Program-made: the position numbers and the translations under genes | The notes under the pieces: generated by a model | The model's input: the letters and a program-made list of their open reading frames with translations, nothing else | The model's database searches: none | What the model was told of the DNA's origin: nothing | From: a virus | Virus record (IMG/VR): IMGVR_UViG_3300010392_000750 | Coordinates: 1 to 29,821 of that record | Strand: one strand, 5' to 3' | Length of the DNA stretch: 29,821 nucleotides | Shown: positions 1 through 21,816 of the stretch, one piece after another | How positions within the stretch are numbered: the first letter of the stretch is position 1 | Layout: every line of letters starts with the position of its first letter

Positions 1-45
1 AGTTTGGAACCAATGGACACTGGCAGTCAACAGGGGTTTAGATAA
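1..45 (+). CDS. 3' end of an upstream gene (partial)
   Basis: The window opens inside a gene. Frame 1 is open from base 1 and stops at TAA 43-45, giving the tail SLEPMDTGSQQGFR and a TAATG overlap with the next gene, a junction used many times in this window. Frame 3 is also possible: it reads FGTNGHWQSTGV and stops at TAG 39-41. Too little is present to choose firmly or to assign a function. Confidence 0.35.
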   Translation, partial: SLEPMDTGSQQGFR

Positions 46-470
46 TGAGTAACGTAGATATAATGCGCAAGTACGCAGATATACTTAAAGAAGATGAATA
101 CGGACGCGATCAAGGTGCGATGAACGAGCCAGAAAATGCCAAAAGCGAAGAAGAGTTTATGGAATGGGTTCGTTACGACGACTTAGAATTCGAACGTTAT
201 CGTGGCGAAGGTGATGGCAGTAATGTTACTATCCAAGGCAGCGAAGTTTATCACGGTGACCGTAGAATGGGCAAGCTTTCATCTGAAGGTGGAAACATTG
301 TTATTATGCACGGTGATTACTCGGAAGGCGGCAACGACTCGGATCTAATCGGCGCAATTAAGAAAGGGCCTAAAGGCGTAGACGTATTCTTTTATGCAAC
401 TGGTTACGAAGGTACCAATGAAGATATGGCATCAGCACTAGACACATTAATTACAGCTGGCTGGAGTTAA
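45..470 (+). CDS. Acidic hypothetical protein with capsid-targeting-like N-terminus
   Basis: This 141-residue acidic protein is not recognised. Its N-terminus, MSNVDIMRKYADILKE then D, ends in L-K-E, which fits the L/I-x-E rule for cleavage by T4 prohead protease gp21. The peptide is longer (18 residues) than in the following genes. The rest is rich in Gly, Asp and Glu, with no membrane segment and no cysteine. It starts a run of genes with similar N-termini, so a packaged internal head protein is the inferred role. The ATG is preceded by AGGGG at 32-36 and overlaps the likely upstream stop. The gene is clearly coding; its function is unknown. Confidence 0.8.
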   Translation: MSNVDIMRKYADILKEDEYGRDQGAMNEPENAKSEEEFMEWVRYDDLEFERYRGEGDGSNVTIQGSEVYHGDRRMGKLSSEGGNIVIMHGDYSEGGNDSDLIGAIKKGPKGVDVFFYATGYEGTNEDMASALDTLITAGWS

Positions 471-472
471 CA

Positions 473-898
473 ATGAGAGCAAAGGATTTTATTAAAGAAG
501 ACTACGACACATCGCAAGATGCTGACGCTGGTTACGATTACGAAGGTGGTGGGAATGTCGACTGGGATGAACACGATGACTCTCCTAATGACGCTGACGG
601 TTTTATTGTAGACAAACCAAGCGGCGGTTATGACGCATCTGTGGATCAGAAGTTCTTAGGTAATTTTGAAGACTCTGATCTAGCTTTTCAAGCTATCAGA
701 GATAACGCTGGTCCTAACTATTTTCCAAGTGTTTGGTTTGTTGATGACCACGGCGGAATGCAGCCGTTTACGCCTTATGACCAAGAACTTATGGCAGGTG
801 ATATGAAGCAATGGGACAAAGAAGCTAACGAACTAATGGCAAGCCGAGGACAACTTCCAAAAGCACAAGCACGTATTCGTAGACATAAATTACGATAA
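473..898 (+). CDS. Acidic hypothetical protein with capsid-targeting-like N-terminus (MRAKDFIKE)
   Basis: The product has 141 residues and is not recognised. It begins MRAKDFIKE followed by D, close in length and pattern to the T4 internal-protein leader MKTYQEFIAE, with I-K-E as the expected gp21-type cleavage site. Residues 10-45 are very rich in Asp and Gly; the C-terminus (about 110-141) is basic, ending RIRRHKLR. That acidic-to-basic layout would suit a DNA-associated head protein, which is an inference. It starts two bases after the previous stop and its own stop overlaps the next ATG (TAATG), so it belongs to the same transcript. Confidence 0.8.
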   Translation: MRAKDFIKEDYDTSQDADAGYDYEGGGNVDWDEHDDSPNDADGFIVDKPSGGYDASVDQKFLGNFEDSDLAFQAIRDNAGPNYFPSVWFVDDHGGMQPFTPYDQELMAGDMKQWDKEANELMASRGQLPKAQARIRRHKLR

Positions 899-1146
899 TG
901 AAAAACCCGTTTACGGAGCATCCACAAAATACTGAGAATCCGCAAACGTATATTGAGCACGGCTATTTCGCATTTAAAAATTCGTGCCTGTTAGTATATG
1001 CAGGCATTGTTGGAATAATACACGCGATCTTTCCATTTATATTACCGTTTACAACATCAACAATTGTAATAAAAGCATTTAAGAAATTAGTAAAGTCTCG
1101 CAGACATAAGAAAGAATTAAAAGAACACTACGATGAAAATATTTGA
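898..1146 (+). CDS. Small membrane protein, DUF6356-like
   Basis: This 82-residue protein has the pattern seen in the DUF6356 family: FTEHP near the start (residues 5-9), then Y-x-EH-x-x-FA (about 18-25), then a long hydrophobic stretch (about 30-60) with prolines. The basic tail KSRRHKKELKEH should stay in the cytoplasm. The family is of unknown function and known mainly from bacterial genomes, so its presence in a phage head-protein cluster is unusual. It has no capsid-targeting-like leader, unlike its neighbours. The start overlaps the previous stop and the end overlaps the next gene by 14 bases. The family call rests on memory of the motif and has not been searched. Confidence 0.7.
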   Translation: MKNPFTEHPQNTENPQTYIEHGYFAFKNSCLLVYAGIVGIIHAIFPFILPFTTSTIVIKAFKKLVKSRRHKKELKEHYDENI

Positions 1147-1158
1147 ATTAACAGAAGA
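1133..1158 (+). repeat. Direct repeat of the leader-coding sequence (copy 1; copy 2 at 1945-1970)
   Basis: The first 26 bases of the gene at 1133 and of the gene at 1945 are the same except for one synonymous base (GAATTA versus GAACTA). Both encode MKIFELTE. Downstream the two proteins are unrelated, so only the leader is shared, either by recent copying of a targeting cassette or by strong selection on it. Confidence 0.85.
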
Positions 1159-1948
1159 ACGTAATTGGGTACAGGATGAAGGGTACGATTTTGTAAACCC
1201 ATTACCTGTGATTCAGAACGATGATGCCTTCGAATTAATCGATCACGTTGATGGCGTTCTGTTACAAATGTACAAGGATGAGCAAGGCATCGAAGGCAAC
1301 TTGCCAGATTACCGTCAGGCTGGTTCTATCACAGTATCAATGCGCGAAAGAGAAGGCACAGTACAAGACGTTCCTATAGCCCAAATTGTTTCGCTTGAGA
1401 AGTATCTAAATAAAAAACACATTGATGGACTGCGTAGACAAGATGACGTGAAGACTTCTAGCAATATGCCATTGTTTTATAAGCAAGGAAACACTTACTA
1501 CGCAGGAGATGGCAATCACCGCATTGTAGCACAGCATTTAAACGGTGACAAAACTATTAAAGGTCTTGTGTTAGACATAGCTAACTATCCAAACGAGGAG
1601 CTAGACGAAATGGACGCAGATTCGGCTGATGCAGAATCTCGCAGAAAGGAATCACGAGAGCCTGCTGAAATAGGAATGCATACAATTTATCGTGCAGTTC
1701 CAGTTGATGTAACAACATTCAGAGAAATGGATTACGTTACTAAGTCACGTAAGTTTGCAGCAGAACATTCGGAATCAATGTACTGGACAGAAGAAGAGCC
1801 ATACCATGTTATAAGAGCAATGGTTAGCAATCGCCACGGCGGAATAGTATTATACAATGCTTCAAATCCAGGTGAATACTTTTACGATGGACCGGAAATA
1901 GCAGGACGAGTTGTATATAAGGCAAAGGAGTACGCAGAATACCAATGA
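1133..1948 (+). CDS. Putative packaged effector: ParB/Srx-like domain plus ADP-ribosyltransferase-like domain
   Basis: The 271-residue product starts MKIFELTE followed by E, a capsid-targeting-like leader. Residues about 80-150 resemble the ParB/sulfiredoxin-like fold: a basic strand region, then YYAGDGNHRIVAQHLNGD (123-140), where the D-G-N-H-R box is the hallmark. Residues about 180-262 resemble the ADP-ribosyltransferase-like domain found in phage head-associated proteins: TIYRAVP (184-190, candidate NAD-binding Arg), DYVTKS (200-205, S-T-S-like strand) and NPGEYFYDGP (245-254, Glu near the end). A clear E-x-E is not visible, so activity is uncertain. T4 Alt is a known packaged and injected ADP-ribosyltransferase with a cleaved leader, which makes an injected host-modifying enzyme a reasonable inference. 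The ATG lies 14 bases inside the previous gene. Confidence 0.65.
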   Translation: MKIFELTEERNWVQDEGYDFVNPLPVIQNDDAFELIDHVDGVLLQMYKDEQGIEGNLPDYRQAGSITVSMREREGTVQDVPIAQIVSLEKYLNKKHIDGLRRQDDVKTSSNMPLFYKQGNTYYAGDGNHRIVAQHLNGDKTIKGLVLDIANYPNEELDEMDADSADAESRRKESREPAEIGMHTIYRAVPVDVTTFREMDYVTKSRKFAAEHSESMYWTEEEPYHVIRAMVSNRHGGIVLYNASNPGEYFYDGPEIAGRVVYKAKEYAEYQ

Positions 1949-2322
1949 AAATATTTGAACTAACAGAAGATATTACACAATCACAACTAAGCCAAGTTGA
2001 AGCTTTTGCTGACAAGCTGTTCGCTAAAGCTGGCATTGACGTAGAGTTTACTAGACACTTTATGGATCGTATGAACGATGACCGTAACGGCAAACCTATT
2101 TCCGCTGGCGAGTTAGTTCGCTTGTTTAAAAACACTTGGATTAAATTTGGTCGTGCAATTGAAAAATTCCCAGACAACTTTGAAGCAGTTATACACGAAC
2201 TAGCTAGCGACGTGAATGTTCCTTTCGTTATTAATGATCGCCGTGACGGCAGAAAGTTAGTAAACAAGACTATTATGCGCAAGAAAGACTTCAAAACAAG
2301 CAACCGCAAGCTAGAAATTTAA
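1945..2322 (+). CDS. Hypothetical protein with capsid-targeting-like leader (MKIFELTE)
   Basis: The product has 125 residues. Its first eight residues are identical to those of the preceding gene (MKIFELTE, then D), and the first 26 bases match with one difference. The body contains TRHFMDRMNDDRNGKPIS (about 36-53) and ends with the basic stretch IMRKKDFKTSNRK. I know this H-F-x-D-R-x-N pattern only as a recurring phage hypothetical; a small RNase-toxin-like fold is conceivable but not shown. The start overlaps the previous stop by four bases (ATGA). A packaged, injected small protein is the inference. Confidence 0.78.
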   Translation: MKIFELTEDITQSQLSQVEAFADKLFAKAGIDVEFTRHFMDRMNDDRNGKPISAGELVRLFKNTWIKFGRAIEKFPDNFEAVIHELASDVNVPFVINDRRDGRKLVNKTIMRKKDFKTSNRKLEI

Positions 2323-2353
2323 CCAACCCACCAAGCCTATCATAAGTACAACT

Positions 2354-2626
2354 ATGGAAACATATGTTATAGAATTTTATCTGTATTGCGATTGGAAAGA
2401 TCTTCCTCCAACTTATCGTATCTACTGCGATGACCAGTTAATGACTGAACGAACATACATTTGGCACAACGATACACACGTATTGCGAGAACGACTGCCA
2501 ATAATCACAGCCGCTAAAGAAGCTAATATTGTTATAGAACAAATTGGACAACAGTCTGGTGAGTTTAGTGTCAAGCGTATTATCCGAACTCCTCCTGAGC
2601 TATCTGTTAACATCGATATTGTATAA
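2354..2626 (+). CDS. Hypothetical protein
   Basis: This 90-residue protein is not recognised. It lacks the capsid-targeting-like leader. Alternating hydrophobic stretches (METYVIEFYLYC; a C-terminal VNIDIV) suggest a small all-beta protein, and two cysteines lie in the first third. A 31-base gap separates it from the previous gene, with no convincing ribosome site. Its stop codon sits inside the late promoter box at 2622-2629 that drives the next gene. Confidence 0.7.
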   Translation: METYVIEFYLYCDWKDLPPTYRIYCDDQLMTERTYIWHNDTHVLRERLPIITAAKEANIVIEQIGQQSGEFSVKRIIRTPPELSVNIDIV

Positions 2627-2629
2627 ATA
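2622..2629 (+). promoter_or_regulatory. T4-type late promoter box TATAAATA
   Basis: This is a perfect T4 late promoter element. It ends only five bases before the ATG at 2635, so transcription starting 6-7 bases downstream would begin at the start codon itself. No Shine-Dalgarno sequence can fit in such a message, so it would be leaderless; alternatively the gene is translated from read-through. Confidence 0.65.
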
Positions 2630-2634
2630 GTAAT

Positions 2635-3141
2635 ATGAGATATTATGAACTTTTAGAAAACGCGTCTGCTGGCGCATCCAGCTCTGGTGGCATTGCAACA
2701 GTAGCAACGTCAATGAACCAGAAACCCATCAAGCGTGGTGTTTACGGCATTGAAGAAAATTACCGTGTTGATATGGTGGACGAGTTTACTCGTGCATATA
2801 TGCAAGCTATGTTATGGGCAGAAACAGATAACTCCAATGACCAGGGCGGCGACCCGCTTGATCAGAACTATGATGAAACAGATTTCTCGGACGACGCAAT
2901 GGAAAGAATTATCAATGATTGCAAACAGTTCCAGCAACAAGCGCAACTAGAAAATTACAGTGAAGAGATTGCTGGCAAAATGGCAGGACACGATTTCTGG
3001 CTAACAAGAGTTGGACACGGTGCAGGATTTTGGGACGGCGATTGGCCAGAAGCTGAGGGTAAAAGGTTAACAGATCTTAGTGAAAAGTTTGGTAACGTAG
3101 ACGTTTACGTTGGCGACGATGGACAATTGGAATTAATGTAA
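2635..3141 (+). CDS. Hypothetical protein with capsid-targeting-like leader and a conserved phage C-terminal domain
   Basis: The 168-residue product starts MRYYELLE followed by N (L-L-E cleavage-type site). A low-complexity stretch, SAGASSSGGIATVATS, follows. Residues about 48-168 form a compact domain seen widely in phage hypothetical proteins as I recall it: EFTRAYMQAMLW, later AGHDFWLTRVGHGAGFWDGD, then a C-terminal VDVYVGDDGQ. The conserved Trp, His and Asp residues are striking but no catalytic role is known to me. It is preceded at close range by a late box and overlaps the next gene by TAATG. A leader grafted onto a widespread domain fits a packaged cargo protein. Confidence 0.8.
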   Translation: MRYYELLENASAGASSSGGIATVATSMNQKPIKRGVYGIEENYRVDMVDEFTRAYMQAMLWAETDNSNDQGGDPLDQNYDETDFSDDAMERIINDCKQFQQQAQLENYSEEIAGKMAGHDFWLTRVGHGAGFWDGDWPEAEGKRLTDLSEKFGNVDVYVGDDGQLELM

Positions 3142-4067
3142 TGAGATACAACGAATTTTTAAAAGAAGCAACCACTATAACCGAAGCCATTCCTGCATTG
3201 AACGACATCGGTCTACCTCCAAAGTTTGTACATTGGTTAGCAAAAAACCGCAGCTTTGATCATGACTTGGAAGTAGAAGAGTTACCAGGAGCACCATCTG
3301 CAAAGAAAGCTCATAGCACTGTAATTCTTTTTGTTAAAAATGACGGTACAGCATACGCAATCAACCGCATCGATTATTGGGGCAGAAAAGGTTGGGAGAT
3401 TTTTGAGTACAGCAACGGCGAAGTTACTGAACACTTTGAACCAACGTGGGCAGATCTTAAAAAGCAAATTGGGCCAGTTCGCAGCGGTAAGTTTTATAGT
3501 ACTAGTTGGGGTGGCGGGCGTCAGCGTTATCGCAGCGATAAAATATCAGGTGACGCAGCAGATGTGAAGGATCGTGAAAACGTTGGGCATCCTGAGCGCG
3601 AAGATATTTACAAATACATGAATAAAGTATTCCTTCCTAAAATTAGAGGAAAACTAGAAACAATGGCAGCTGACATATTTTCAAACATACAAGCAATTCC
3701 ACGTAAGGTTGACACAAGCGGTCATTATTCAAATACAGATCGTCAGTTCTTAGTTCGCTCGCGATGGAACGAAAGTGCTAGAGACGAAGCATTAAGATAT
3801 GCAGAAATCATCGAGCAACTTGCAGAAGATGGCTTTGATCGCGACGTTATGAAACGTTGGTTAGAATCAGAAAAGAGATTAAAGAAGGGTCGCACTGACA
3901 AATACAAGGATATGGACGAGCTTGAAAGAGCACTACACTTGGAAAAGGCTGCTCCTGCTAAAATCGCTAAATCATTATTAAATACTGCCAAACATTACCA
4001 CAACGAAGTTCTTCAAATAAGAAAGAACATCGAGAAGAATAAAGGCGAACCTCGCGGCCGACGTTAA
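3141..4067 (+). CDS. Basic hypothetical protein with capsid-targeting-like leader (MRYNEFLKE)
   Basis: The 308-residue product begins MRYNEFLKE followed by A, the closest match in the window to the T4 internal-protein leader MKTYQEFIAE followed by A. A second possible site, I-T-E before A, lies at residues 13-15. The N-terminal half is mixed alpha/beta with a Gly-rich stretch (TSWGGGRQRYR); the C-terminal half (about 200-308) is helical and strongly basic (EKRLKKGRTDKYK and a C-terminal EPRGRR), compatible with DNA contact inside the head. No enzyme motif is recognised. It starts on the previous stop (TAATG) and is followed by a 51-base gap with a late promoter. Confidence 0.8.
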   Translation: MRYNEFLKEATTITEAIPALNDIGLPPKFVHWLAKNRSFDHDLEVEELPGAPSAKKAHSTVILFVKNDGTAYAINRIDYWGRKGWEIFEYSNGEVTEHFEPTWADLKKQIGPVRSGKFYSTSWGGGRQRYRSDKISGDAADVKDRENVGHPEREDIYKYMNKVFLPKIRGKLETMAADIFSNIQAIPRKVDTSGHYSNTDRQFLVRSRWNESARDEALRYAEIIEQLAEDGFDRDVMKRWLESEKRLKKGRTDKYKDMDELERALHLEKAAPAKIAKSLLNTAKHYHNEVLQIRKNIEKNKGEPRGRR

Positions 4068-4088
4068 CAACCTAAAAACTTACAGTCT

Positions 4089-4096
4089 GATAAATA
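4089..4096 (+). promoter_or_regulatory. T4-type late promoter box GATAAATA
   Basis: The box matches the NATAAATA late consensus known from T4-like cyanophages. It lies in the 51-base gap before the giant gene, 22 bases ahead of its ATG, leaving room for a short leader with the weak ribosome site TAGGA near 4107-4111. Confidence 0.7.
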
Positions 4097-4118
4097 CATT
4101 AAAATATAGGATTAATGT

Positions 4119-7100
4119 ATGTCAGATTTTAACATCAAGAAATTTTTAGCCGAGTCAGTGGATCCATTTTTAGCGACTCTAAAACAACATCCAGCAACCC
4201 AACAGTCTTGGGATGATGAAGATCACTTCTTCCAAAACGAACCAAAGCCAGTTATGTGCCCAGATTGCGAAGGCGAAGGAACACGTTTTGGTGATGATTG
4301 CACACGATGCGGTGGACACGGTGAAGTTTTTGAAAGTTCAGACGAACAAAACGTTGAGCATAGTGATCAAATGGATGATGAAGATTATGACGTTCCTGCA
4401 ATGGAAGGCTACGAATTCGGCGATATTGTTAACGGCTATGATCCAAGACTAATTGCACAAGATATGCTCGACGGCGGCATATCTGCTATAAGTGATGCAA
4501 ACTTTGATGATTTATATGCTCAGTATATGGGAAGCAACGGTGACCCATCTACAGTGTTCGATGACGATCTTAAAGAAGCAGTACGCAAAGCATACAAAGC
4601 AATCCTAAAGAATAAAGCAATGAGCGGTTCAGACTTCAACAAACTTCCAGGTTCAGACTTTAACGAAAGCGACGATGAGGAAGACATTAGTGTTAAGTAT
4701 CGCAAGAGTGCTAGCAATCCTTATGGAACTGAAGGCAACGGATACGATGACTCCCGTTTAGATCATGATCCAGACGAGCAGATCGACGAAGTAGGCGATG
4801 TGTTTATGAATGACCTATCACAGTTAAAAGAATTTGCAGGCATCGAAGAAACAGCTCCACAAGGCGCAGCACCTGCCGCACAACTTAAAGGCAAAGATAA
4901 GCTTAAAGGTAAAGGCGTTAAAGGCTATAACGATGCACATCCTGCGTCTGGTCAGTTAGTAGGCGAAACAGGCTTTGCTGGATCGGGTGGAAGCCCAGAC
5001 GACTGGGCAAGCCCAGCATACGATGAGCAACTAGCAGCCGCAGAACGAAATGTTGAAATGTTCTTAGGTGATACTGATCCTGAGAATGCAGCAGAAGAAG
5101 CTTTCACACTAGCAGTTGATGGCGCAATGGATGCAGGCGCATCTAGCGAAGAAGCAACTATGATAGGCCGCGAAGTTGCTGACGCTTATCGTGAAATGGG
5201 TATGGCTGCTGATTCAGAAATAAACAAAATGAAGAGCGATGCTGGAATCTTGACGGAGCCAATGGCTGAAGAGCCAGAAGCTCCAGAAGGACAATCTCCA
5301 GACGACATCTTTCGTAGCGTAATGGGTTGGGACGAAGAAGAAGCTACTCCTGTACAGGATATGCCTACTCAGCCAAAAGATTATGCTGAAGGCGATGAAG
5401 ATCCATTGGATGATATGAGTGAATTTAACGACGAAGACGCTGAATTCTTTGGATATGATCCACGCAGTCTTGAAGACGAATTGCTTGGCGAGTACGATGA
5501 CTTCGAAGACGACTATGAAGAAGACGACGACGAGTATTACGAAGAAGAAACAACCGTAAGAATTCGTGGTAGATCTCCTGAGCAAAGCTACTGGAACAAC
5601 AACGGTAAATTCCAAAACAAGATTGGAAAATTAGAAGAATTAATACCAGCACAAGACGAAGTAGACGATGCAGAAAACAACCCAGCACTAGAACGTTTTC
5701 GTTCTGCTGCTAATTGCTACTATGACGTTTACAACAACGGCTTATGGGACGAAGGGCGCGGACAGCGCGGCGAAGAGTTTGAAGAGCTATTTGGTTTAGG
5801 CGTAGGACATAACATTGACACCGGCGACTTAGAAGATTTAATAGACGATGTTGTACACGAAGCGTGGGAAGAGCAATCAGCTAAAGGCACCGTAAGCGAA
5901 GAACAACTGGATGAATTTCTTCCAGCACTAGCAGGCGCGGCAGTTGGTTCTATGCTGACTGACGATGACGATGACTTAATTGGTAAAGGCGATGTTGATG
6001 CTGGCGACAACTTAACAGTTTCTCCAGGTCAAACAGTACAAGTTGATTCAGCGTTAGGCGGTGAAGCTACAGTCGTAGCACAACGTTCTAACTATCTTGT
6101 TGTTAAGCTGCCGAAAGGTGGTATGAAACTATTGCGTGATGACGAATGGTGGATGAACGACGAAGATGAATTTGGCAGTGAAGATGGTTACGTTGATGTT
6201 GAAGGCGGCTACGAAGAGCCAGACGAATTAACATTTGAAGCTAAAGTTGACGGCTTTGACGAGCTTCCAATGAAAATGACACCGGGATCTGCTATTGAAG
6301 TTAGAAAGAACGGCGGCAAACGTCGATTGTTCCTTAACTACAACGGCGAACGTACAATAAAAATTCGTACTGCTGATGCAAAGATAGTCCGTAAAGGAAT
6401 TATTATTGGCAAAGATCCAAAAGATTTACTTCAGAAAATAAACAAAATGGGCTTTGCACCATATAACTATTCAGACTCAATGAACGAAGCGCCAAACGCA
6501 CTACAGAAAGTAGGCAAATGGGCGAAGCGTGGCTTCCAATGGGGCAGCGACGATACTCCGGGCGATATGGTTAAGCGTCATCAAGAATATGACACTGACT
6601 CTCTTAAAAACTTACAAGACAAGCCTGGGACTTGGAAAACTGGCCCAGCTAAGTTACAACAAAAATTAATCAAGCGTAACCTACGTAAGCGTGGCGAACG
6701 CGATTTTGAAAAGTACATGGACGAAAGCAATTTCGGCGATCGTAAACGTGAACACGAAGAGCTAGTTGCTAGATCTAAAGTACAAGGCAAACAGATCACT
6801 GACAAGATGGAACTTAGACGTCAAGCACAACAACGAATGGATGCTAAGAGAAATAAAGTTAAAGAAGATCAAGCATCGGTAATGCCACAACACGCGCAAG
6901 ACGATAGACAAAATCATTTCTTTAGCGAAGGCTACAAAATTATGCCTCCAATGGATCCTAAGTATGTTGAACGTGATGGATTAGAAGGTCCTTTCTCAAC
7001 GCACTCTGGCAAGGTAGTTTACTACGATCCTAAAGCTGGTAAGCATTACGATCCTGACACTGATATGTATATGGACTACGACGAGTTCGCAGAATACGAT

Positions 7101-9272
7101 CGCGATCCTGATATGATATACCCAGAATTTACAACTCCAGCACCTAAACCACGCGAACGTGGACGTATGGACGAGACTGGAATAGATACTGAAAAATATC
7201 CACAAATTGAAGGGAAACGTGGCCCATTCGTTAGAGGCGATGGCCACATTTATTACATAGATGTTGAAACTGGCAATTACTATATGCCAGACTCATTCGA
7301 CGAGCTGGACTACACAGATTTCCAAATGAAAGAAGCTAGTTACGGTTACGGACGTGATCACAACGACGAAATGCATAGCCTAGAAAATGACAAGGCATGG
7401 TTCAAGCGCCAAGAAATGCAACACGAGCTTGGACACGAAGATGAATGGAACAGACGTCAGCAAGCACAAGCAAGAATCAATCCAAGAACCGGACACCCAA
7501 TATCTCATGTCAAATATGACGATGATATGGACGAAGGCGCTTTCGGACCTATTGGCAAACGACTTGCTCGACGCAAGTTTAAAAAGCAAGCAAAAAACTC
7601 AATGAAGGCAGCAACAGACCAATATTTTGGTCCTGTACAAGATTATGATTTTGCTGATCCAGATCGTTTTCCAGAAGAAGACAAGTTCCGCGATCACATG
7701 GGCAACGAACGTCGATATTCACGAGCTGCTAAACGACTGGGCAGAGAAGACAATGAAAAGGCTTATCAAAAAGCAATTAAGAAGCACGACAAGCAAATGG
7801 GAGTGGAAGAAGGCAAGACAAGAACTTATACTGGCGATTTAGCTACAACTGAAGTGGAGCCACCATACGGCGGATTTTCCAGATTAGGAATGAAGGACTT
7901 AGCGGAGTGGATTAAACTACGCAAAGATCACCCACGTTGGGCAGAGATGGTTAAGAAAGCTAAGAAAGTATTAGCACAGAAGAAGTCTCACGCAAAGTTT
8001 ATGAAGGGCAATCGTCCACCACAAACAAAATACAAATACACAATCGCCAAGCAAGTAGGTGGCGATGATGGTTATCAGTGGGCAGTTATTGATAAGAAAA
8101 CTGGTCATGTTTTCATAAACGGACTTACAAGGCCCGAAGTAAAATATTACAGGGATCAAGCAGAAGCTGACCTTGCTAAGAAGTACGGCGTGGGCGAAAG
8201 CATTAATGAATACGAGTACGATACTAAAGACAAAGGCAAAGGCGCTGGTTGGTCTGCAGGTGGAGACGGTGGCAAGAAGAACCGTAAGAACCGTAAAGCA
8301 TTCCGTAAAGCAGAAAAGAAACGTAAGCACGATGCAATGATGCGCGGTGAGAAATGGGCACAGGAACCAGTAGACGAAGCCATCATACCGTGGGACAGCG
8401 AGCACAGTGAAGGTGATTTCGTAGACGATGAGTCTGGTCAAATCCATAGAGCAGATGATGTTATACAAGATCCCGAAACTGGTGAATGGCGCGAAAAAAC
8501 ACAACAAGAACAAATGGGTCCTGAAAAGTGGGCAGAGTTCGAACGTGAAGAAGAAAAATTACGAGCAGAACTCGATGCGCAATATGCAGCATGGGACGCA
8601 GAAGACGAAGCAGAAGCTAACGCAGGACCTCAAATATCTAAGATGGGTTGGGATGCTATTGGCGACTTCGGTGACGTAGCTGGCGGTGGAGGTGATCCTA
8701 TTGATTTTGTTATGCAAAAGTACGGACTTAATATGGAATCTATCGACGCAGAAGCTGTTAACCAAGGATATGCAGATGCGTATGAATGGGCTGAAAGCTA
8801 TCGAGATTTGCCTACCGAAGGACCAGAAATGGAAGAAAGCAGCAATTTTAAGAAAGGCTACAAGAACAAAGGCGGAGCATACACTCGTCCAGGTTCTGCA
8901 GATGAGAAAAGAGCTGGTGGAAAGTTTAATCGCAAAGATGCAAAAGGTAAAAGCGACGAAGAAGGTGCAGCGTGGGCAGAACGCAATCAAGTAAATGAAA
9001 TTGAAACTGCGTCCGACCAACTAGCATCCGATCGTGCAGGCGAAGCAGAACAGGGCTTGGGTGATACAAACAGTGATGTCCCAATGGGAATTGATTCTGA
9101 TGCTGAGTTAGCTGGTATGCAACAACTAATCAAAAACGTAATGCAAGAGCCAGACCAAGATATGGAACAAGCTATACAACAAATGGCTATGGCAAATACT
9201 GATCCAGCAGATGCAGAGCTAGGCACAGACGAAGTAGCGGACTTAAAGAACTTATTGGGGCTTCTTAAATAA
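4119..9272 (+). CDS. Giant acidic modular protein, putative packaged internal virion protein
   Basis: This 1717-residue protein is the largest in the window. It starts MSDFNIKKFLAE followed by S, a capsid-targeting-like leader with an L-A-E site. Residues 47-70 form a DnaJ-type zinc knuckle with C47, C50, C61 and C64 in two CxxCxGxG-like units. A very acidic zone follows (about 440-480), then a small beta domain near 630-680 and basic helical segments. Two related repeats lie near 957-990 and 1033-1066, sharing GPF, a Y-x-D strand, G-[KN]-[HY]-Y and P-D. A basic KNRKNRKAFRKAEKKRK stretch lies near 1387-1403. Many internal x-D/N-E-[AGSV] junctions separate the modules and could be processing points. 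No enzyme domain is recognised. A polyprotein-like core or injected protein is the inference; tail or scaffold roles are not excluded. Confidence 0.8.
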   Translation: MSDFNIKKFLAESVDPFLATLKQHPATQQSWDDEDHFFQNEPKPVMCPDCEGEGTRFGDDCTRCGGHGEVFESSDEQNVEHSDQMDDEDYDVPAMEGYEFGDIVNGYDPRLIAQDMLDGGISAISDANFDDLYAQYMGSNGDPSTVFDDDLKEAVRKAYKAILKNKAMSGSDFNKLPGSDFNESDDEEDISVKYRKSASNPYGTEGNGYDDSRLDHDPDEQIDEVGDVFMNDLSQLKEFAGIEETAPQGAAPAAQLKGKDKLKGKGVKGYNDAHPASGQLVGETGFAGSGGSPDDWASPAYDEQLAAAERNVEMFLGDTDPENAAEEAFTLAVDGAMDAGASSEEATMIGREVADAYREMGMAADSEINKMKSDAGILTEPMAEEPEAPEGQSPDDIFRSVMGWDEEEATPVQDMPTQPKDYAEGDEDPLDDMSEFNDEDAEFFGYDPRSLEDELLGEYDDFEDDYEEDDDEYYEEETTVRIRGRSPEQSYWNNNGKFQNKIGKLEELIPAQDEVDDAENNPALERFRSAANCYYDVYNNGLWDEGRGQRGEEFEELFGLGVGHNIDTGDLEDLIDDVVHEAWEEQSAKGTVSEEQLDEFLPALAGAAVGSMLTDDDDDLIGKGDVDAGDNLTVSPGQTVQVDSALGGEATVVAQRSNYLVVKLPKGGMKLLRDDEWWMNDEDEFGSEDGYVDVEGGYEEPDELTFEAKVDGFDELPMKMTPGSAIEVRKNGGKRRLFLNYNGERTIKIRTADAKIVRKGIIIGKDPKDLLQKINKMGFAPYNYSDSMNEAPNALQKVGKWAKRGFQWGSDDTPGDMVKRHQEYDTDSLKNLQDKPGTWKTGPAKLQQKLIKRNLRKRGERDFEKYMDESNFGDRKREHEELVARSKVQGKQITDKMELRRQAQQRMDAKRNKVKEDQASVMPQHAQDDRQNHFFSEGYKIMPPMDPKYVERDGLEGPFSTHSGKVVYYDPKAGKHYDPDTDMYMDYDEFAEYDRDPDMIYPEFTTPAPKPRERGRMDETGIDTEKYPQIEGKRGPFVRGDGHIYYIDVETGNYYMPDSFDELDYTDFQMKEASYGYGRDHNDEMHSLENDKAWFKRQEMQHELGHEDEWNRRQQAQARINPRTGHPISHVKYDDDMDEGAFGPIGKRLARRKFKKQAKNSMKAATDQYFGPVQDYDFADPDRFPEEDKFRDHMGNERRYSRAAKRLGREDNEKAYQKAIKKHDKQMGVEEGKTRTYTGDLATTEVEPPYGGFSRLGMKDLAEWIKLRKDHPRWAEMVKKAKKVLAQKKSHAKFMKGNRPPQTKYKYTIAKQVGGDDGYQWAVIDKKTGHVFINGLTRPEVKYYRDQAEADLAKKYGVGESINEYEYDTKDKGKGAGWSAGGDGGKKNRKNRKAFRKAEKKRKHDAMMRGEKWAQEPVDEAIIPWDSEHSEGDFVDDESGQIHRADDVIQDPETGEWREKTQQEQMGPEKWAEFEREEEKLRAELDAQYAAWDAEDEAEANAGPQISKMGWDAIGDFGDVAGGGGDPIDFVMQKYGLNMESIDAEAVNQGYADAYEWAESYRDLPTEGPEMEESSNFKKGYKNKGGAYTRPGSADEKRAGGKFNRKDAKGKSDEEGAAWAERNQVNEIETASDQLASDRAGEAEQGLGDTNSDVPMGIDSDAELAGMQQLIKNVMQEPDQDMEQAIQQMAMANTDPADAELGTDEVADLKNLLGLLK

Positions 9273-9565
9273 TGAAAATCGAGGATATTATGAATGAGTC
9301 GGAAACGGCTCATCATAATAGGATACAAACGTATACTGATTCTACAATTAAGAGTTTAGTTAATCGAATCCGTTCAGACATCAATAGCTTTGGTTCTGCG
9401 AAGATCGACGGCCGAGCTTCTGTGCTTAATGTAAGCGGCAGACAAGTCGAGAAAGCATATGGCTTAAACTTACTTCAACTGTCTCAACAGTCTGAAAGAC
9501 ATAGCAAGACGGCGTGGTTACATCAAAACGCTAGAGATCTTTACTCAATGGGTTACAACAAATAA
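9272..9565 (+). CDS. Hypothetical protein with a capsid-targeting-like N-terminus
   Basis: The product has 97 residues. It starts MKIEDIMNE followed by S, echoing MKIFELTE, although the spacing I-M-N-E does not strictly fit L/I-x-E. The ATG overlaps the giant gene's stop (TAATG). A second in-frame ATG at 9290 has GAGG at 9281-9284 in front of it, so the start could be there, which would remove the leader. The rest is helical with no known motif. A perfect hairpin with a GAAA loop lies at 9294-9313 inside the early coding region. Confidence 0.72.
   Translation: MKIEDIMNESETAHHNRIQTYTDSTIKSLVNRIRSDINSFGSAKIDGRASVLNVSGRQVEKAYGLNLLQLSQQSERHSKTAWLHQNARDLYSMGYNK
9294..9313 (+). other. Eight-pair hairpin with GAAA tetraloop
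   Basis: ATGAGTCG and CGGCTCAT pair over eight positions (one T-G wobble) around a GAAA loop, a GNRA-type tetraloop known to be very stable in RNA. It lies 22 bases into the coding region of the gene at 9272, or four bases after the alternative ATG at 9290. It is not followed by a T tract, so it is not a terminator; control of translation or RNA processing is possible. Confidence 0.55.
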
Positions 9566-16993: not shown

Positions 16994-18574
16994 ATGTCTA
17001 AACCAGAACAGGATAATTTAACAGCGAAGCAAGGCGATTACGCAATGTTTTTGCCGTCTATTAGCAGTTTTTACGTCAATTACATCAGTAAACAGTATCA
17101 CGAAGAGTTCGTTAAGAAAAGTCGTATACCGTTTGCCAATGGTATGGAAGCACTCAACTTCTTTAACGAGCAGGACGGTAACTTCACATACAAGTGGGCA
17201 TTGTACTCTGGTGGACACGCTGTACTAGATGTCAACAAACCAACACCGCAGGAAGATATGATTCGCAAGCGTGACCGCAATAAGACGTGGTTACTAGGCG
17301 ACTCGGGTGGATTCCAGATTGCGAAAGGTGTTTGGGATGGCGACTGGAAAGATCCTGCTTGTCCAAAAGCACAGAAGAAGCGCGAGCTTGTATTGAAGTG
17401 GCTGGACGAGTATATGGACTATAGCATGGTACTTGATATTCCTGCGTGGTTGCGCCGTATTCCTGGTGCAAGCGACAAGACTGGTATTTACACATTTGAT
17501 GATGCTGTCAAAGGTACACAGTATAACCACGACTACTTCATGAAACATAGACGCGGCGCTGAAAACGGTGGTACCAAATTCTTAAACGTACTGCAAGGCG
17601 AGAATCACGCAGAGTCGGATGAATGGTACAGAATTTTCAAAGACTACTGTGATCCTGCTGTATATCCTGACACGCACTTCGAAGGATGGGCGTTTGGTGG
17701 GCAGAATATGTGCGACTTGCACCTTACATTAAAACGCATAGTAGACTTCCACTTTGATGGATTGCTAAAAGAAGGCGTACACGATGTTATTCACTTACTT
17801 GGAATGAGTAAGCTGGAATGGGCTGTGCTGTTAACTGACGTGCAACGTGCGGCGCGTAAGTATTACAACCCAGCACTGTCAATAACATTTGACGCAGCAA
17901 GTCCATTCTTAGCGACAGCTAATGGACGCATATACACAACACTTAGAACAACACACGACACGAAGTGGACATACAAATCCGAAGCAAGCTTGGATGACAA
18001 CTCATACACAAGCGACACACGAAGCTATAAAGATGCAGTGTTGAACGATGGTCACTACAAAGTATTTGATGACAGTCCTATTATGGATGAGTGCAAGATT
18101 AACGATATTTGTTTCTATCCACCGGGATCTATCAACAAGCAAGGCAACGTGGCAAAGACTTCATGGGATACGTTTAGTTACTGTATTCAAATGGGTCATA
18201 ATGTTTGGAGTCATATCAATGCTGTACAACAAGGCAACAGAGATTATGACAACGGCCAAATACCTAAGATGCTTATTCCAACAGGACAATCCGACGGAGC
18301 AACGTTTAGAGAAATAGTAGATGCTATATTCTCTTGTGACAAGCGCGAAGATGCTTATGCTATTATTGATCACTACGATCGTTATTGGATGCGTATAGTT
18401 GGATCGCGTGGACTTACAGGCAAGAAGACCAAAAATGCTAGCGGGCAGTTTGACCAGTTGTTTGCTGTAACAGAAAGCACCGCAGAGCCAGCAATTGAAA
18501 CTCCAGTAACAGATAAGCTGGAAGCGTTAGAAGAAACAGTATCCGAGTCAACGTTCACAACATTATTCAAATGA
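16994..18574 (+). CDS. dpdA: DNA guanine transglycosylase, DpdA/TGT-like
   Basis: The 526-residue product belongs to the tRNA-guanine transglycosylase superfamily, in the DNA-acting DpdA branch found in phages. Visible motifs are WLLGDSGGFQ (99-108, substrate Asp103 and the SGGFQ loop), MVLDIPAW (145-152, base-recognition Asp148), NVLQGE (198-203, Gln), GWAFGG (231-236) and SITFDAASPF (296-305, candidate nucleophile Asp300). DpdA swaps guanine in DNA for a 7-deazaguanine base such as preQ0. The C-terminal part (about 310-526) is not typical of tRNA enzymes. QueC, FolE and QueE are encoded downstream, supplying the base. The modified DNA should resist host restriction. The ribosome site AAGGG lies at 16983-16987. 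Confidence 0.9.
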   Translation: MSKPEQDNLTAKQGDYAMFLPSISSFYVNYISKQYHEEFVKKSRIPFANGMEALNFFNEQDGNFTYKWALYSGGHAVLDVNKPTPQEDMIRKRDRNKTWLLGDSGGFQIAKGVWDGDWKDPACPKAQKKRELVLKWLDEYMDYSMVLDIPAWLRRIPGASDKTGIYTFDDAVKGTQYNHDYFMKHRRGAENGGTKFLNVLQGENHAESDEWYRIFKDYCDPAVYPDTHFEGWAFGGQNMCDLHLTLKRIVDFHFDGLLKEGVHDVIHLLGMSKLEWAVLLTDVQRAARKYYNPALSITFDAASPFLATANGRIYTTLRTTHDTKWTYKSEASLDDNSYTSDTRSYKDAVLNDGHYKVFDDSPIMDECKINDICFYPPGSINKQGNVAKTSWDTFSYCIQMGHNVWSHINAVQQGNRDYDNGQIPKMLIPTGQSDGATFREIVDAIFSCDKREDAYAIIDHYDRYWMRIVGSRGLTGKKTKNASGQFDQLFAVTESTAEPAIETPVTDKLEALEETVSESTFTTLFK

Positions 18575-18819: not shown

Positions 18820-19325
18820 AAAGACAATTCGAAGATAAAAAAGACGTAGTATATTACACTGGCATCAATGTTGAACGAACATTGGCGTACGGTAAGCAAA
18901 CACTATTCCTAAACGAATTTCGCGCAGCCAAAATGGTTATGGACATTGCCGCAGATAGAGAATGTGAACATATTTACATTGGTGCTAACGGCACGTTTCG
19001 ACCAAAGAACAACGAAGATTGGTCTTTGTATGAAGTCTTAGTTGAAGGCTTAACAGCAGGTGGTTACTTAGTCACTATGGAGCACAACTTAACACAATCT
19101 GCTTGGTTCTTGGATAGCTGTTTTGCAGACAACAATATGGTCATACCAGTTTTGACTGTGGAGATCCCATACATTGCACAATATGGTAACAACTCTGCTC
19201 TGAAAATTACAGATAAGAGTTTTGGTGAAACCAATCCTGGTGTTTGGGTACACAGTTACAACGACATTACTAAGACTGATGCGTTTACACACTGGAACGA
19301 CTATAAGGATGATAAAGCGATATGA
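18816..19325 (+). CDS. Unrecognised protein between dpdA and queC
   Basis: The 169-residue product overlaps both neighbours by four bases, so it is firmly inside the modification operon. Noteworthy stretches are VVYYTGINVERTLAYGKQT (about 11-29), CEHIYIGANGTF (about 47-58), YIAQYGNNSALKITDKSF (about 118-135) and NPGVWVHSYNDI (about 139-150). It looks like a soluble alpha/beta domain with conserved-looking Asn, His and Trp positions, but I cannot assign a family. It shows no QueD zinc motif, no QueF signature and no amidotransferase motif. By position it is the best candidate for an accessory or tailoring factor in 7-deazaguanine synthesis or insertion. Confidence 0.82.
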   Translation: MKRQFEDKKDVVYYTGINVERTLAYGKQTLFLNEFRAAKMVMDIAADRECEHIYIGANGTFRPKNNEDWSLYEVLVEGLTAGGYLVTMEHNLTQSAWFLDSCFADNNMVIPVLTVEIPYIAQYGNNSALKITDKSFGETNPGVWVHSYNDITKTDAFTHWNDYKDDKAI

Positions 19326-20089
19326 AAGAACTTAACGTAATCACAAAAGGACGCGAGATAGCCAAAGGTAAATCGGTGTTGCTGTTTAGCGGCGGGATGG
19401 ATTCGGTAATGTTTGACTTGCTCTTAAAGCCGGACATTTTGCTGTACGCTCCAACTGGTTCTAACTATGAAACAATTGAAACACAGAAGATCAAACAGTT
19501 AGCAAAGGACAACATTATTGATGAGCAGAAGCTGATCATAATGGACGAGACTATTAACTTGGCTCCGTTCGAGCGCGATGATTTGATTGTCCCTAACCGC
19601 AATGCGTACTTGGTATTGCTAGCTTCACACTTTGGTGAAACTATTTACTTGGGTTCTGTGTATGGTGACCGTTCGTTTGACAAGGACAAGACATTCTACG
19701 CACTGATGGAAGGCCTGCTCAACCATATGTGGAGCGAACAACACTGGACAGAGGAACGTGTATTCAGCGTGAGCTCTCCATACAAGGACACAACTAAGAC
19801 AGAGCTTATCAAAGAGTACGAGCTTGCTGGTGGTGATGTTCAAAACATACTGGATTCATATAGCTGTTACAGAGGCGAAGAGCAAGCTTGTGGAATATGC
19901 AAGCCGTGTGTTCGTAAGGCTGTATCACTAATTTGTAATTTTGTAGCAATACCAGACGATTACTTTGAACAGCATCCAATGTCAGCTCCGTGGATTGAAG
20001 AGTTGCTCCCACAGATGGTGGAAGGCAAATATCGCGGACGCGAAGATGCAGAATTTATTACTGCAATGAAGTTGACAGGCTGGTTGTAA
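19322..20089 (+). CDS. queC: 7-cyano-7-deazaguanine (preQ0) synthase QueC
   Basis: The 255-residue product has the PP-loop ATPase signature LLFSGGMDS (20-28), the PNRN box (91-94), KDTTKTELI (155-163) and the zinc site C182, C190, C193, C196 in SCYRGEEQACGICKPC. QueC converts 7-carboxy-7-deazaguanine to preQ0 with ATP and ammonia. It is not fused to a glutamine amidotransferase domain, so preQ0 rather than an archaeosine-type amidine is the expected product. It is slightly longer than the usual 220-235 residues because of its C-terminus (about 215-255). It overlaps the genes on both sides (ATGA upstream, TAATG downstream), consistent with coupled translation with dpdA. Confidence 0.95.
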   Translation: MKELNVITKGREIAKGKSVLLFSGGMDSVMFDLLLKPDILLYAPTGSNYETIETQKIKQLAKDNIIDEQKLIIMDETINLAPFERDDLIVPNRNAYLVLLASHFGETIYLGSVYGDRSFDKDKTFYALMEGLLNHMWSEQHWTEERVFSVSSPYKDTTKTELIKEYELAGGDVQNILDSYSCYRGEEQACGICKPCVRKAVSLICNFVAIPDDYFEQHPMSAPWIEELLPQMVEGKYRGREDAEFITAMKLTGWL

Positions 20090-20466
20090 TGGACGCAACC
20101 GACCCTGAATACAACGGCGCGTTAGATCCTGAAGAACAGCATCGCGCGTATATGGATCTGCAGCGCAAAACACTTATGAAAGATGCGCTCAATATGGCGC
20201 GTGTACGTTACTCTATTACAGTCGGCACTCGCGTATACAATTACAAAGTTTACATACAAATTTGGCAAGACGATGACTTCAACTATGAAGAATTTCTCGA
20301 CTTCTGTAAAAAACTTACAGTGAATGAAGTGGAGCTAAATACTAATAGTTACAAAGCAATGGCAGACCAATTATACAACTTATTAGCGATTGGGATGCCA
20401 GGACGTAGCATATGGATATGTATCAATCAAAATGATACTGGTATAACAATACAATACGAACAATAA
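20089..20466 (+). CDS. Hypothetical protein downstream of queC; possible divergent QueD-like fold
   Basis: The product has 125 residues. The C-terminal 85 residues run in the order seen in the QueD/6-pyruvoyl-tetrahydropterin synthase T-fold: strand YNYKVYIQIWQ (around 49-59), EEFLDFCKKL, a helix NSYKAMADQLYNLL (around 83-96), and strands SIWICINQNDTGITIQYE. The zinc-binding His triad and catalytic Cys of QueD are not present (Y-N-Y stands where H-G-H is expected), so if it is related it is not a normal enzyme. This is a by-eye alignment and is uncertain. The gene overlaps queC by TAATG. Confidence 0.72.
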   Translation: MDATDPEYNGALDPEEQHRAYMDLQRKTLMKDALNMARVRYSITVGTRVYNYKVYIQIWQDDDFNYEEFLDFCKKLTVNEVELNTNSYKAMADQLYNLLAIGMPGRSIWICINQNDTGITIQYEQ

Positions 20467-20479
20467 CTTGGAGCCTTCC

Positions 20480-20737
20480 ATGGCACATTATAACAAAAAG
20501 AACAAGCAACAAAAGCCCCGCGGCATGAAGCCGGAAGTAATTAAGATCTTCGAGGAGCTAGAAGAATACCACGATTATTGCAGATTTCAATTATGCAAAT
20601 TTGACGAAGCAGATTTATTCAAATCTAAAAACTGGCAGCGTTTCAATGAAGCCCGTAAACGCAAAGCAGCATTTGAACAGCGCGAAGCAAAGCGCGAAGC
20701 AAAGAAACTAGCAGAGCAACAAGCAAAACAGGCGTAA
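20480..20737 (+). CDS. Small highly charged helical protein
   Basis: The 85-residue product is basic at both ends, with a Tyr/Cys-containing middle (YHDYCRFQLCKFDEADLF) and a long charged C-terminal helix carrying the REAK repeat. The ATG at 20480 follows TTGGAG (20468-20473) at a good distance and is preferred over the in-frame TTG at 20468. It is unrecognised; a protein- or nucleic-acid-binding helix is the only structural inference. Confidence 0.75.
   Translation: MAHYNKKNKQQKPRGMKPEVIKIFEELEEYHDYCRFQLCKFDEADLFKSKNWQRFNEARKRKAAFEQREAKREAKKLAEQQAKQA
20680..20703 (+). repeat. Tandem 12-base duplication
   Basis: GCGCGAAGCAAA occurs twice in direct succession. It keeps the frame and encodes REAK twice in the C-terminal helix of the gene at 20480, an example of recent in-frame duplication. 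Confidence 0.9.
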
Positions 20738-20740
20738 CCA

Positions 20741-21025
20741 ATGATTAAGTATATGAACGACATTGACTTGTCGAACTACGGCTTATATTTAGAATCAACA
20801 TCTATCAAAGCAGATGCAATCAATGCAACGGTATCAATGGAACTTACTATACCTAGCGGTGTGTTAAATTCCAGCGATACCGTTGAAAACTTAGAACGAT
20901 TTTACTTAGATCTAAAAATGATGAATGCATTAAAGGGCAACTTCACGCCAGCAGTTCAAACCCATTATGAAGAGCTACTAATTTTGTTAGCTTTAAGTAA
21001 CGACACCGCAAAAAAAGATAAATAA
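20741..21025 (+). CDS. Hypothetical protein with YEELLILLAL C-terminal motif
   Basis: The 94-residue product is unrecognised. A second in-frame ATG at 20753 (MNDIDLSNYG) is an alternative start. The C-terminus PAVQTHYEELLILLALS (about 70-86) closely matches the C-terminus of the gene at 25235, although the rest of the two proteins is unrelated. It ends within the box GATAAATA at 21017-21024. Confidence 0.72.
   Translation: MIKYMNDIDLSNYGLYLESTSIKADAINATVSMELTIPSGVLNSSDTVENLERFYLDLKMMNALKGNFTPAVQTHYEELLILLALSNDTAKKDK
21017..21024 (+). promoter_or_regulatory. Possible T4-type late box GATAAATA
   Basis: The sequence matches the late box used elsewhere in the window but lies within the last codons of the upstream gene, 65 bases ahead of folE. 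A late promoter for folE would be unexpected, so this may be coincidence or a second, late start. Confidence 0.35.
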
Positions 21026-21033
21026 ACTCATAG

Positions 21034-21052
21034 TATCAACAAGAGGTTGATA
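21034..21052 (+). promoter_or_regulatory. Inverted repeat overlapping the folE -35 box
   Basis: TATCAAC, a five-base loop, and GTTGATA form a perfect seven-pair dyad. The right arm contains the candidate -35 box TTGATA of the folE promoter. It could be an operator or a small hairpin; no T tract follows. Confidence 0.5.
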
Positions 21053-21076
21053 ACTAATCATAATAACAATTATAAC
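21047..21076 (+). promoter_or_regulatory. Sigma70-type promoter upstream of folE
   Basis: TTGATA (21047-21052), an 18-base spacer and TATAAC (21071-21076) precede a normal leader with the strong ribosome site GGAGG (21078-21082), seven bases before the ATG at 21090. Both boxes are one or two bases off consensus. Confidence 0.55.
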
Positions 21077-21089
21077 TGGAGGTTATAAC

Positions 21090-21770
21090 ATGTCTTTAAA
21101 CAAGCAAAAATGCGATCCTGAACTTGGACTCGCGGTACACAAACACTTAGAATCACTCGGCTTAGAAACGCCAAAAAGCGACAGCTCATTAACCGTCAAA
21201 GAACGTATTGCTCTTATCGAGGAAGACTTCAGACGCATAATGGTAACACTAGGCTTAGACTTAACTGACGACAGCTTAATCGACACCCCAAAACGTGTAG
21301 CAAAAATGTATGTAAGCGAAATCTTTTACGGATTAGATTACGACACATTTCCAAAATGCACAGCAATCGACAACAAATTTAAAGCAGACGAAATGATCAT
21401 TGAACGCAATGTCAATGTTATGACAAACTGCGAACATCACTTTGTTGTGATTGATGGTCTAGCAACAGTTGGTTACATTCCAGAAGGAAAGGTAATTGGA
21501 CTTAGCAAGATTAACCGTATTGTTGAATACTTCAGCAAGCGACCACAAGTACAAGAGAGACTAACAGCTCAAATTCATGCTGCTCTGTGTTTCATATTGA
21601 AAACAGATCACGTAGCTGTAATGATCGATGCAAAGCATTATTGCGTAGCATCTCGCGGTATCGAAGATACTGGATCATTCACTACGACTAGCAAACTTTC
21701 AGGAGCTTTTAAAGATCCTAAAGAAGGTGCTAGACAGGAATTTATGGCTATTGCAAATAGCTCTAAGTAA
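21090..21770 (+). CDS. folE: GTP cyclohydrolase I FolE
   Basis: The 226-residue product matches the type I enzyme over its whole length. Zinc ligands and active-site blocks are present: NCEHHF (113-118; C114, H117), IGLSKINRIVEYFSKRPQVQERLT (136-159) and HYCVASRGIED (183-193; C185). It turns GTP into 7,8-dihydroneopterin triphosphate, the first step toward 7-deazaguanines. Here it should feed QueE, QueC and DpdA rather than folate synthesis. It has its own promoter and a strong ribosome site, so it is set apart from the dpdA-queC operon. A nine-pair hairpin follows its stop. Confidence 0.96.
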   Translation: MSLNKQKCDPELGLAVHKHLESLGLETPKSDSSLTVKERIALIEEDFRRIMVTLGLDLTDDSLIDTPKRVAKMYVSEIFYGLDYDTFPKCTAIDNKFKADEMIIERNVNVMTNCEHHFVVIDGLATVGYIPEGKVIGLSKINRIVEYFSKRPQVQERLTAQIHAALCFILKTDHVAVMIDAKHYCVASRGIEDTGSFTTTSKLSGAFKDPKEGARQEFMAIANSSK

Positions 21771-21772
21771 TT

Positions 21773-21794
21773 ACCAAAAATATTGATTTTTGGT
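21773..21794 (+). promoter_or_regulatory. Nine-pair hairpin between folE and queE
   Basis: ACCAAAAAT and ATTTTTGGT pair perfectly around ATTG. The hairpin lies three bases after the folE stop and its loop and right arm hold the -35 box (TTGATT) of the queE promoter. It may be a weak bidirectional terminator or an operator. No T tract follows the stem. Confidence 0.5.
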
Positions 21795-21811
21795 TCAACT
21801 TGTGGTATAAT
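21783..21811 (+). promoter_or_regulatory. Sigma70 promoter with extended -10, likely leaderless, for queE
   Basis: TTGATT (21783-21788), a 17-base spacer ending TGG, and TATAAT (21806-21811) form a strong promoter with an extended -10. The box ends five bases before the queE ATG (21817), leaving no room for a ribosome site. Confidence 0.7.
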
Positions 21812-21816
21812 ATAAT

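Follow-up and report, generated by a model that had tools for sequence, protein, structure and literature searches.

Phage T4 encodes the internal proteins with which it disarms host defences in separate genes, each carrying its own targeting leader. These proteins are injected into the host, where some block restriction enzymes (PMC12373910). The T4 prohead protease gp21 cuts after L/I-X-E and removes capsid-targeting propeptides of 10–19 residues. It also splits gp22 and gp67 into several pieces each, and most core fragments then leave the head (PMC9026906). Here we describe a 1717-residue protein, labelled P0001, that is probably a precursor of internal head proteins, led by a capsid-targeting sequence (CTS) and predicted to be cut into about ten cargo peptides by the prohead protease. 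An earlier note made from the DNA letters had suggested that the product may be a polyprotein from which this protease releases several internal peptides, and comparison with relatives supports that idea. A search of the open-access PMC literature turned up no comparable polyprotein of the phage head.

The window, by which we mean the whole stretch of DNA analysed, is a 29,821-base virus record from IMG/VR. Its PolB shows 39–44% identity to those of Sinorhizobium phage Phosso, Vibrio phage 2.275.O and Agrobacterium phage Atu_ph07, all jumbo T4-related phages, and the window is a 29.8-kb piece of an uncultured T4-related jumbo phage. The single open frame of 1717 codons is real and intact, and the composition of its product is extreme (D 11.6%, E 10.3%). 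P0001 had no relative in INPHARED at E 1e-5 and only partial relatives in IMG/VR, where a full-length homologue was not found. Alignment A1 as a search query gave the same three loci only, PolB as a query gave one 5-kb relative that has no P0001-type gene, and a look-up of genome contigs gave 3 MAG contigs only. The parts of P0001 and the adjoining genes are as follows, with an arrow marking each predicted cut.

45..470, + strand: neighbour gene, leader ...ADILKE↓D
473..898, + strand: neighbour gene, leader MRAKDFIKE↓D
1133..1948, + strand: neighbour gene, leader MKIFELTE↓E; ParB-C-like match
1945..2322, + strand: single-cargo gene, leader MKIFELTE↓D
2635..3141, + strand: neighbour gene, leader MRYYELLE↓N
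3141..4067, + strand: neighbour gene, leader MRYNEFLKE↓A
4090..4096, + strand: ATAAATA, a weak −10 box resembling T4 late promoters, within the 51 bp that separate the P0001 gene from the gene upstream
4119..9272, + strand: whole precursor open reading frame, 1717 aa (P0001)
4119..4154, + strand: N-terminal leader MSDFNIKKFLAE↓ (aa 1–12), capsid-targeting-like, ending L-x-E↓S
4155..6488, + strand: aa 13–790, mostly very acidic N-terminal half; main pieces of pI ~4.1–4.4; sites not enriched
4254..4322, + strand: aa 46–68, CPDCEGEG...CTRCGGHG, DnaJ-type half zinc site, sub-threshold
5574..5753, + strand: aa 486–545, domain known as free-standing small genes
6489..6725, + strand: putative cassette aa 791–869, basic (pI 9.7), between inferred sites MNE↓A and MDE↓S
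6726..6929, + strand: putative cassette aa 870–937, basic (pI 9.6), ending FSE↓
6930..7175, + strand: OCRE-like module copy 1, aa 938–1019, starting GY directly after FSE↓ and ending MDE↓T
7176..7334, + strand: diverged OCRE-like copy 2, aa 1020–1072, starting after MDE↓T and ending MKE↓
7335..7535, + strand: putative cassette aa 1073–1139, MKE↓A to MDE↓
7536..7811, + strand: putative cassette aa 1140–1231, basic (pI 9.7), MDE↓G to VEE↓
7812..8198, + strand: putative cassette aa 1232–1360, basic (pI 9.8, net +12), VEE↓G to VGE↓
8199..8378, + strand: putative cassette aa 1361–1420, basic (pI 9.7), VGE↓S to VDE↓
8379..8837, + strand: putative cassette aa 1421–1573, acidic (pI 4.1), VDE↓A to MEE↓
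8838..9269, + strand: C-terminal piece aa 1574–1717, after MEE↓S
9272..9565, + strand: downstream gene, leader MKIEDIMNE↓S

The packaging-like leader that had been noticed at the start of P0001 is indeed present (MSDFNIKKFLAE↓S, 12 aa) and has the form of a T4-type CTS leader, with a length of 10–19 residues and a gp21 site at its end. Similar leaders stand on at least seven neighbouring genes, an enrichment of p=4.5e-5 for a loose pattern and a cluster picked post hoc, and the run of genes with short hydrophobic-x-E leaders at 45–9565 is possibly an entire capsid-targeted cargo operon. The idea that the seven leader-bearing neighbours are further polyproteins was dropped, as they hold 3 sites against 5.2 expected. 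Likewise, the ATAAATA boxes could not be kept as firm late promoters, since the overall count in the window (9 versus 7.9 expected) is not above chance. The domain of the 1945–2322 gene sits within longer proteins of other phages, several of which have a site at its edge. This FTRHFxDRxND domain occurs in at least ten other contigs, alone or fused to parts that by eye look HAD-like or nucleotidyltransferase-like, and its product is a candidate injected protein. Besides the leader genes, the neighbours of P0001 are DNA metabolism genes, and the window stops short of any head gene. QueC, FolE and QueE genes cluster at 19322–22710, which suggests 7-deazaguanine modification of the phage DNA. Near them, a 526-aa protein (16994–18574) matches nothing in Pfam, PHROGs, NCBIfam or PDB sequences; our guess by eye is a DpdA-like phage transglycosylase.

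The earlier note had read the junctions within P0001 as acidic x-D/N-E-[AGSV]. A junction motif does exist, and what the relatives support is [V/I/L/M/F]-x-E↓[G/A/S], with N tolerated after the cut. The strict x-D/N-E rule was dropped, D/N at P2 being a preference only. P0001 holds 14 such sites where shuffled versions hold 7.4–7.6 (p ~0.02). This excess is confined to residues 781–1717 (9 versus 3.2 expected), there being none in residues 1–780 (5 versus 4.4 expected), so about ten C-terminal cuts are to be expected and the N-terminal 780 residues may stay as one or a few pieces. As P0001 lacks a full-length homologue, conservation can speak to few of its sites, and the only junctions anchored by homology are those of the two OCRE-like copies. 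Judged from P0001 alone, the putative junctions are weakly above chance, and it is the relatives that supply the strong evidence.

Several other parts of the chain were assessed. The proposed DnaJ-type knuckle at C47/C50/C61/C64 held up as two CxxCxGxG motifs, but the match is below the cut-off for Pfam PF00684 (E=0.0058, 17.3 of 32.7 bits), and DnaJ 1exk is matched at E=0.0085 over residues 46–71; a DnaJ central domain needs four CxxCxGxG repeats forming two zinc sites, and P0001 has two. The domain at aa 486–545 is found as free genes in L031 (121 aa, 35% identity) and L266 (105 aa, 55% identity), L- and G-numbers here being labels of loci or contigs that carry modules. The motif is absent at the edge of this domain in P0001, and we do not claim cutting there. 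For the cassette at aa 1232–1360, a query spanning residues 1229–1360 found no relative.

Of the two GPF-block repeats noticed earlier, copy 1 (from residue 957) is a clear family member. Copy 2 (from residue 1035) has diverged but remains recognisable by its matches to family members of other phages (E ~1e-4), and it likewise starts just past a hydrophobic-x-E motif (MDE↓T). A GPF-block alignment search found 394 IMG/VR stretches that encode the module, 80 of which were fetched. The module comprises about 60 residues, GYxxLPPMDxEKYQERDGLEGPFxTxSGKVVYYDPKEGKYYDPDTDMYxSYDEF. Several members have OCRE (PF17780) as their best Pfam match, with E values of 1e-4 to 3e-4, although the score of 21.2 bits (21–22 across members) does not reach the gathering threshold of 24.7. 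Segment-wise structure prediction, suggested as a check, succeeded in part. A model of the module from 36 sequences has a pLDDT of 83 and shows four short strands (19–23, 29–33, 38–41 and 46–48) plus a helix, whereas a single-sequence model of aa 1293–1360 has a pLDDT of 54 and is too poor to use. The module fold matches the PDB weakly (best E=0.7, WWE/WW domains), and its best match among the BFVD predicted viral structures is named OCRE (E=3e-4). In L263 and L264, which are metagenome-assembled contigs, the module stands alone as a short free gene starting M-GY, so the residue after the predicted cut is the first residue of the free module. In L037–L040, a leader runs at once into the GY of the module (MKINEITE↓GY).

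Related marine phages appear, from their protein sequences, to swap cargo units as cassettes exactly at the cut signals. The L001, L002 and L003 proteins are almost identical except for two regions holding unrelated segments, which are flanked by GVAE↓G or VEE↓S sites in one protein and follow a SINE↓A-type site in another. L033 and L028 have their N-terminal sequence in common, and L033 has an SLT transglycosylase plus LysM insert between sites. Such enzymes and domains, DUF6321 among them, vary between close relatives in the manner of cargo, and this speaks against the alternative that P0001 is a core protein in the style of T4 gp22/gp67, one that is cut often and then degraded or expelled before DNA packaging, its pieces having no function in the host. 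We consider that alternative unlikely, even though most T4 core fragments do leave the head (PMC9026906) and the N-terminal half of P0001 is acidic as core proteins are. It also draws on L104:163-1239, a core-like acidic gene directly before gp21, in the gp67/68 position, where VDE↓A sites bound a ~55-aa stretch that is duplicated almost exactly in tandem. P0001 itself has no family match to a gp22-type scaffold and no gp21–gp23 location, and an ART-PolyVal gene, again of a cargo type, lies close to the polyprotein gene of L001.

This ART-PolyVal gene lies close downstream of the polyprotein gene at L001:10338-12527, L002:9891-12194 and L003:10323-12527. Its product has three ART-PolyVal ADP-ribosyltransferase domains (PF18760) in L001 and L003, the two loci tested, and it begins with a leader MKI[GS]QLLE and has its copies separated by a V-E↓G site, which makes this a candidate Alt-like cargo gene. 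Between the polyprotein and ART genes sits a small protein that by eye looks like a DNA-protection protein of the Dps/ferritin-like kind (L001:9901-10341, L002:9454-9894, L003:9886-10326).

The boundary rule was assessed across relatives, with upstream contexts counted once per dissimilar upstream sequence; some of these may still share distant descent. For the OCRE-like module, in 28 mutually unrelated contexts, P1 is Glu in 27/28, P1' is Gly in 27/28, and P3 is V/I/L/M/F in 21/28 against a background of 24% (p=1.6e-8), the other seven having a different residue there. The P3 result is the more telling, since P1 and P1' could be the module's own while P3 lies in unrelated sequence. The DUF6321 module (P1 Glu in 31/33, hydrophobic P3 in 22/33, p=1e-9) and the NFADGK module (7/7 for both) obey the predicted rule independently of the OCRE-like module. 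The KDACY module follows it loosely: 31 of its 52 contexts show a site no more than 3 residues away, the background being 5%. The name DUF5872 for this module was dropped, as Pfam did not return it. Nor are the modules restricted to large T4-like phages, since one DUF6321 homologue belongs to a cyanophage record of 37 kb.

We also compared every site-bearing protein of the fetched loci with every other, counting a [VILMF]xE↓[AGSN] site if it lay within 4 residues in both partners. The starts of shared segments coincide with the motif in 29% of cases, versus 1.1% when sites were rotated. As the loci had been picked by modules, the control without module hits matters; with the selecting module excluded, the coincidence is 12–14% versus 1.1%, and 0/500 rotations reach the value. 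Overall, boundary and motif coincide 10–27 times above chance. Site density is likewise raised in the 47 module proteins (243 sites versus 88 ± 8.5), the figures for other open reading frames being 338 versus 308.

These data bear on a second alternative, that P0001 is a single uncut structural or scaffold protein with acidic linkers, in which the V-x-E-G strings are a conserved linker or recombination sequence. The acidic residues 1–780, with their lack of site excess, would suit such a protein, and modular phage proteins generally recombine at linkers. However, a linker does not account for a P1 Glu and hydrophobic P3 kept in otherwise unrelated upstream sequences, nor for a boundary effect specific to Glu at P1, which gives 49 coincidences versus 4.9 expected where any other residue gives at most 3. 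Together with free genes that start at the P1' residue, and with the existence of leader-only genes, this leaves the uncut protein improbable, a little more so than the discarded core.

Since modules start after [V/I/L/M/F]-x-E↓, their boundaries match the T4 prohead-protease rule L/I-x-E↓. A protein query, used because the Pfam gp21 and gp23 models matched nothing, controls included, detected a gp21-type protease in 7 of the 12 module-carrying contigs tested, including all six of at least 230 kb. The near-complete relatives sampled do carry such a protease. A neighbouring major capsid protein was present in 5 of 6 gp21 contigs examined, and by alignment its propeptide apparently ends L-x-E↓A or L-x-E↓S in L100, L102 and L105, and L-x-E↓N in L101 and L104. 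The module gene and the gp21 gene are direct neighbours in G007. Cutting by some other protease (host Glu-specific, or a self-cleaving domain), or cutting after host entry, is very improbable: polyvalent proteins often carry their own peptidase (PMC5512222) and no protease gene was seen within the 29.8-kb window, but Pfam and other profile searches found no peptidase domain and no known polyvalent domain in P0001, and the motif is both the gp21 rule and that of the capsid-protein propeptide ends in the same relatives.

The cleaved cargo precursor is thus supported by gp21-type motifs at module starts in unrelated contexts, by whole-module swaps at the motif, by free module genes or leader-only genes, and by a gp21-type protease in module phages. 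In such a scheme, the leader of P0001, like the T4 capsid-targeting sequence, would bring the chain into the prohead core, where the phage's gp21-type protease would remove the leader and make cuts at about ten [V/I/L/M/F]-x-E↓[G/A/S] sites along the C-terminal part. The products, peptides of ~50–150 residues, would include several strongly basic ones and an OCRE-like beta module; they would stay with the packaged DNA and presumably be ejected into the host. The acidic N-terminal half is probably a core- or scaffold-like part, or else one larger cargo. With cut signals as their borders, units could be gained, lost or exchanged as cassettes. We infer cleavage and packaging, as well as, by analogy with T4, ejection and the function of each piece.

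More broadly, we lean towards the view that T4-related phages, from the sea and from other waters, draw on a common pool of interchangeable small proteins that are encoded as polyproteins and packaged. The prohead-protease signal would then be both cut site and cassette boundary, with units gained and lost between two such sites. If true, this would explain the organisation of many large 'hypothetical' proteins in T4-like phages of the sea. It would also offer a simple rule for dividing these proteins into their real mature products and, thereby, a means of listing what such phages probably inject into bacteria.

Finally, we compare P0001 with known systems. The OCRE domain (PF17780) and the module share the aromatic octamer repeat YYDPKxG-KYYDPxTD, although the module scores below the Pfam cut-off and its fold match to the PDB is weak. 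The cyanophage T4-GC119/phrog_727 proteins (P-SSM2 PSSM2_123, Syn19_101 and S-SM1 SSM1_115) have the KDACY module, as do the P0001 relatives L001–L003, plus DUF6321, with sites in front. Their gene sits between gp15 and gp17, and a cyanophage record note ties GC119 to S-SM1, as for other virion proteins, which is an indirect hint at a place in the virion. They differ in being shorter, in having no OCRE-like module and in showing no overall homology to P0001. Polyvalent proteins (ART-PolyVal and others; PMC5512222) are likewise phage proteins of several domains that are presumed to be packaged and injected, and L001 and L003 have a triple-domain ART-PolyVal gene close to that of the polyprotein; P0001 differs in having neither a polyvalent domain nor its own peptidase, and in units split by prohead-protease motifs. 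T4 gp22, gp67 and gp68 resemble it as single precursors with several L/I-x-E sites, small peptides and acidic regions, but these are scaffold parts that are mostly discarded, whereas units of the P0001 type are diverse, recombining and in some relatives enzymatic. T4 IPI, IPII, IPIII and Alt share with it the short N-terminal leader ending hydrophobic-x-E↓, the gp21-type motif, an origin in T4-like phages and a variable, probably host-facing cargo. In T4, however, each gene carries one cargo trimmed at one or both ends, whereas P0001 would carry many units with internal sites.
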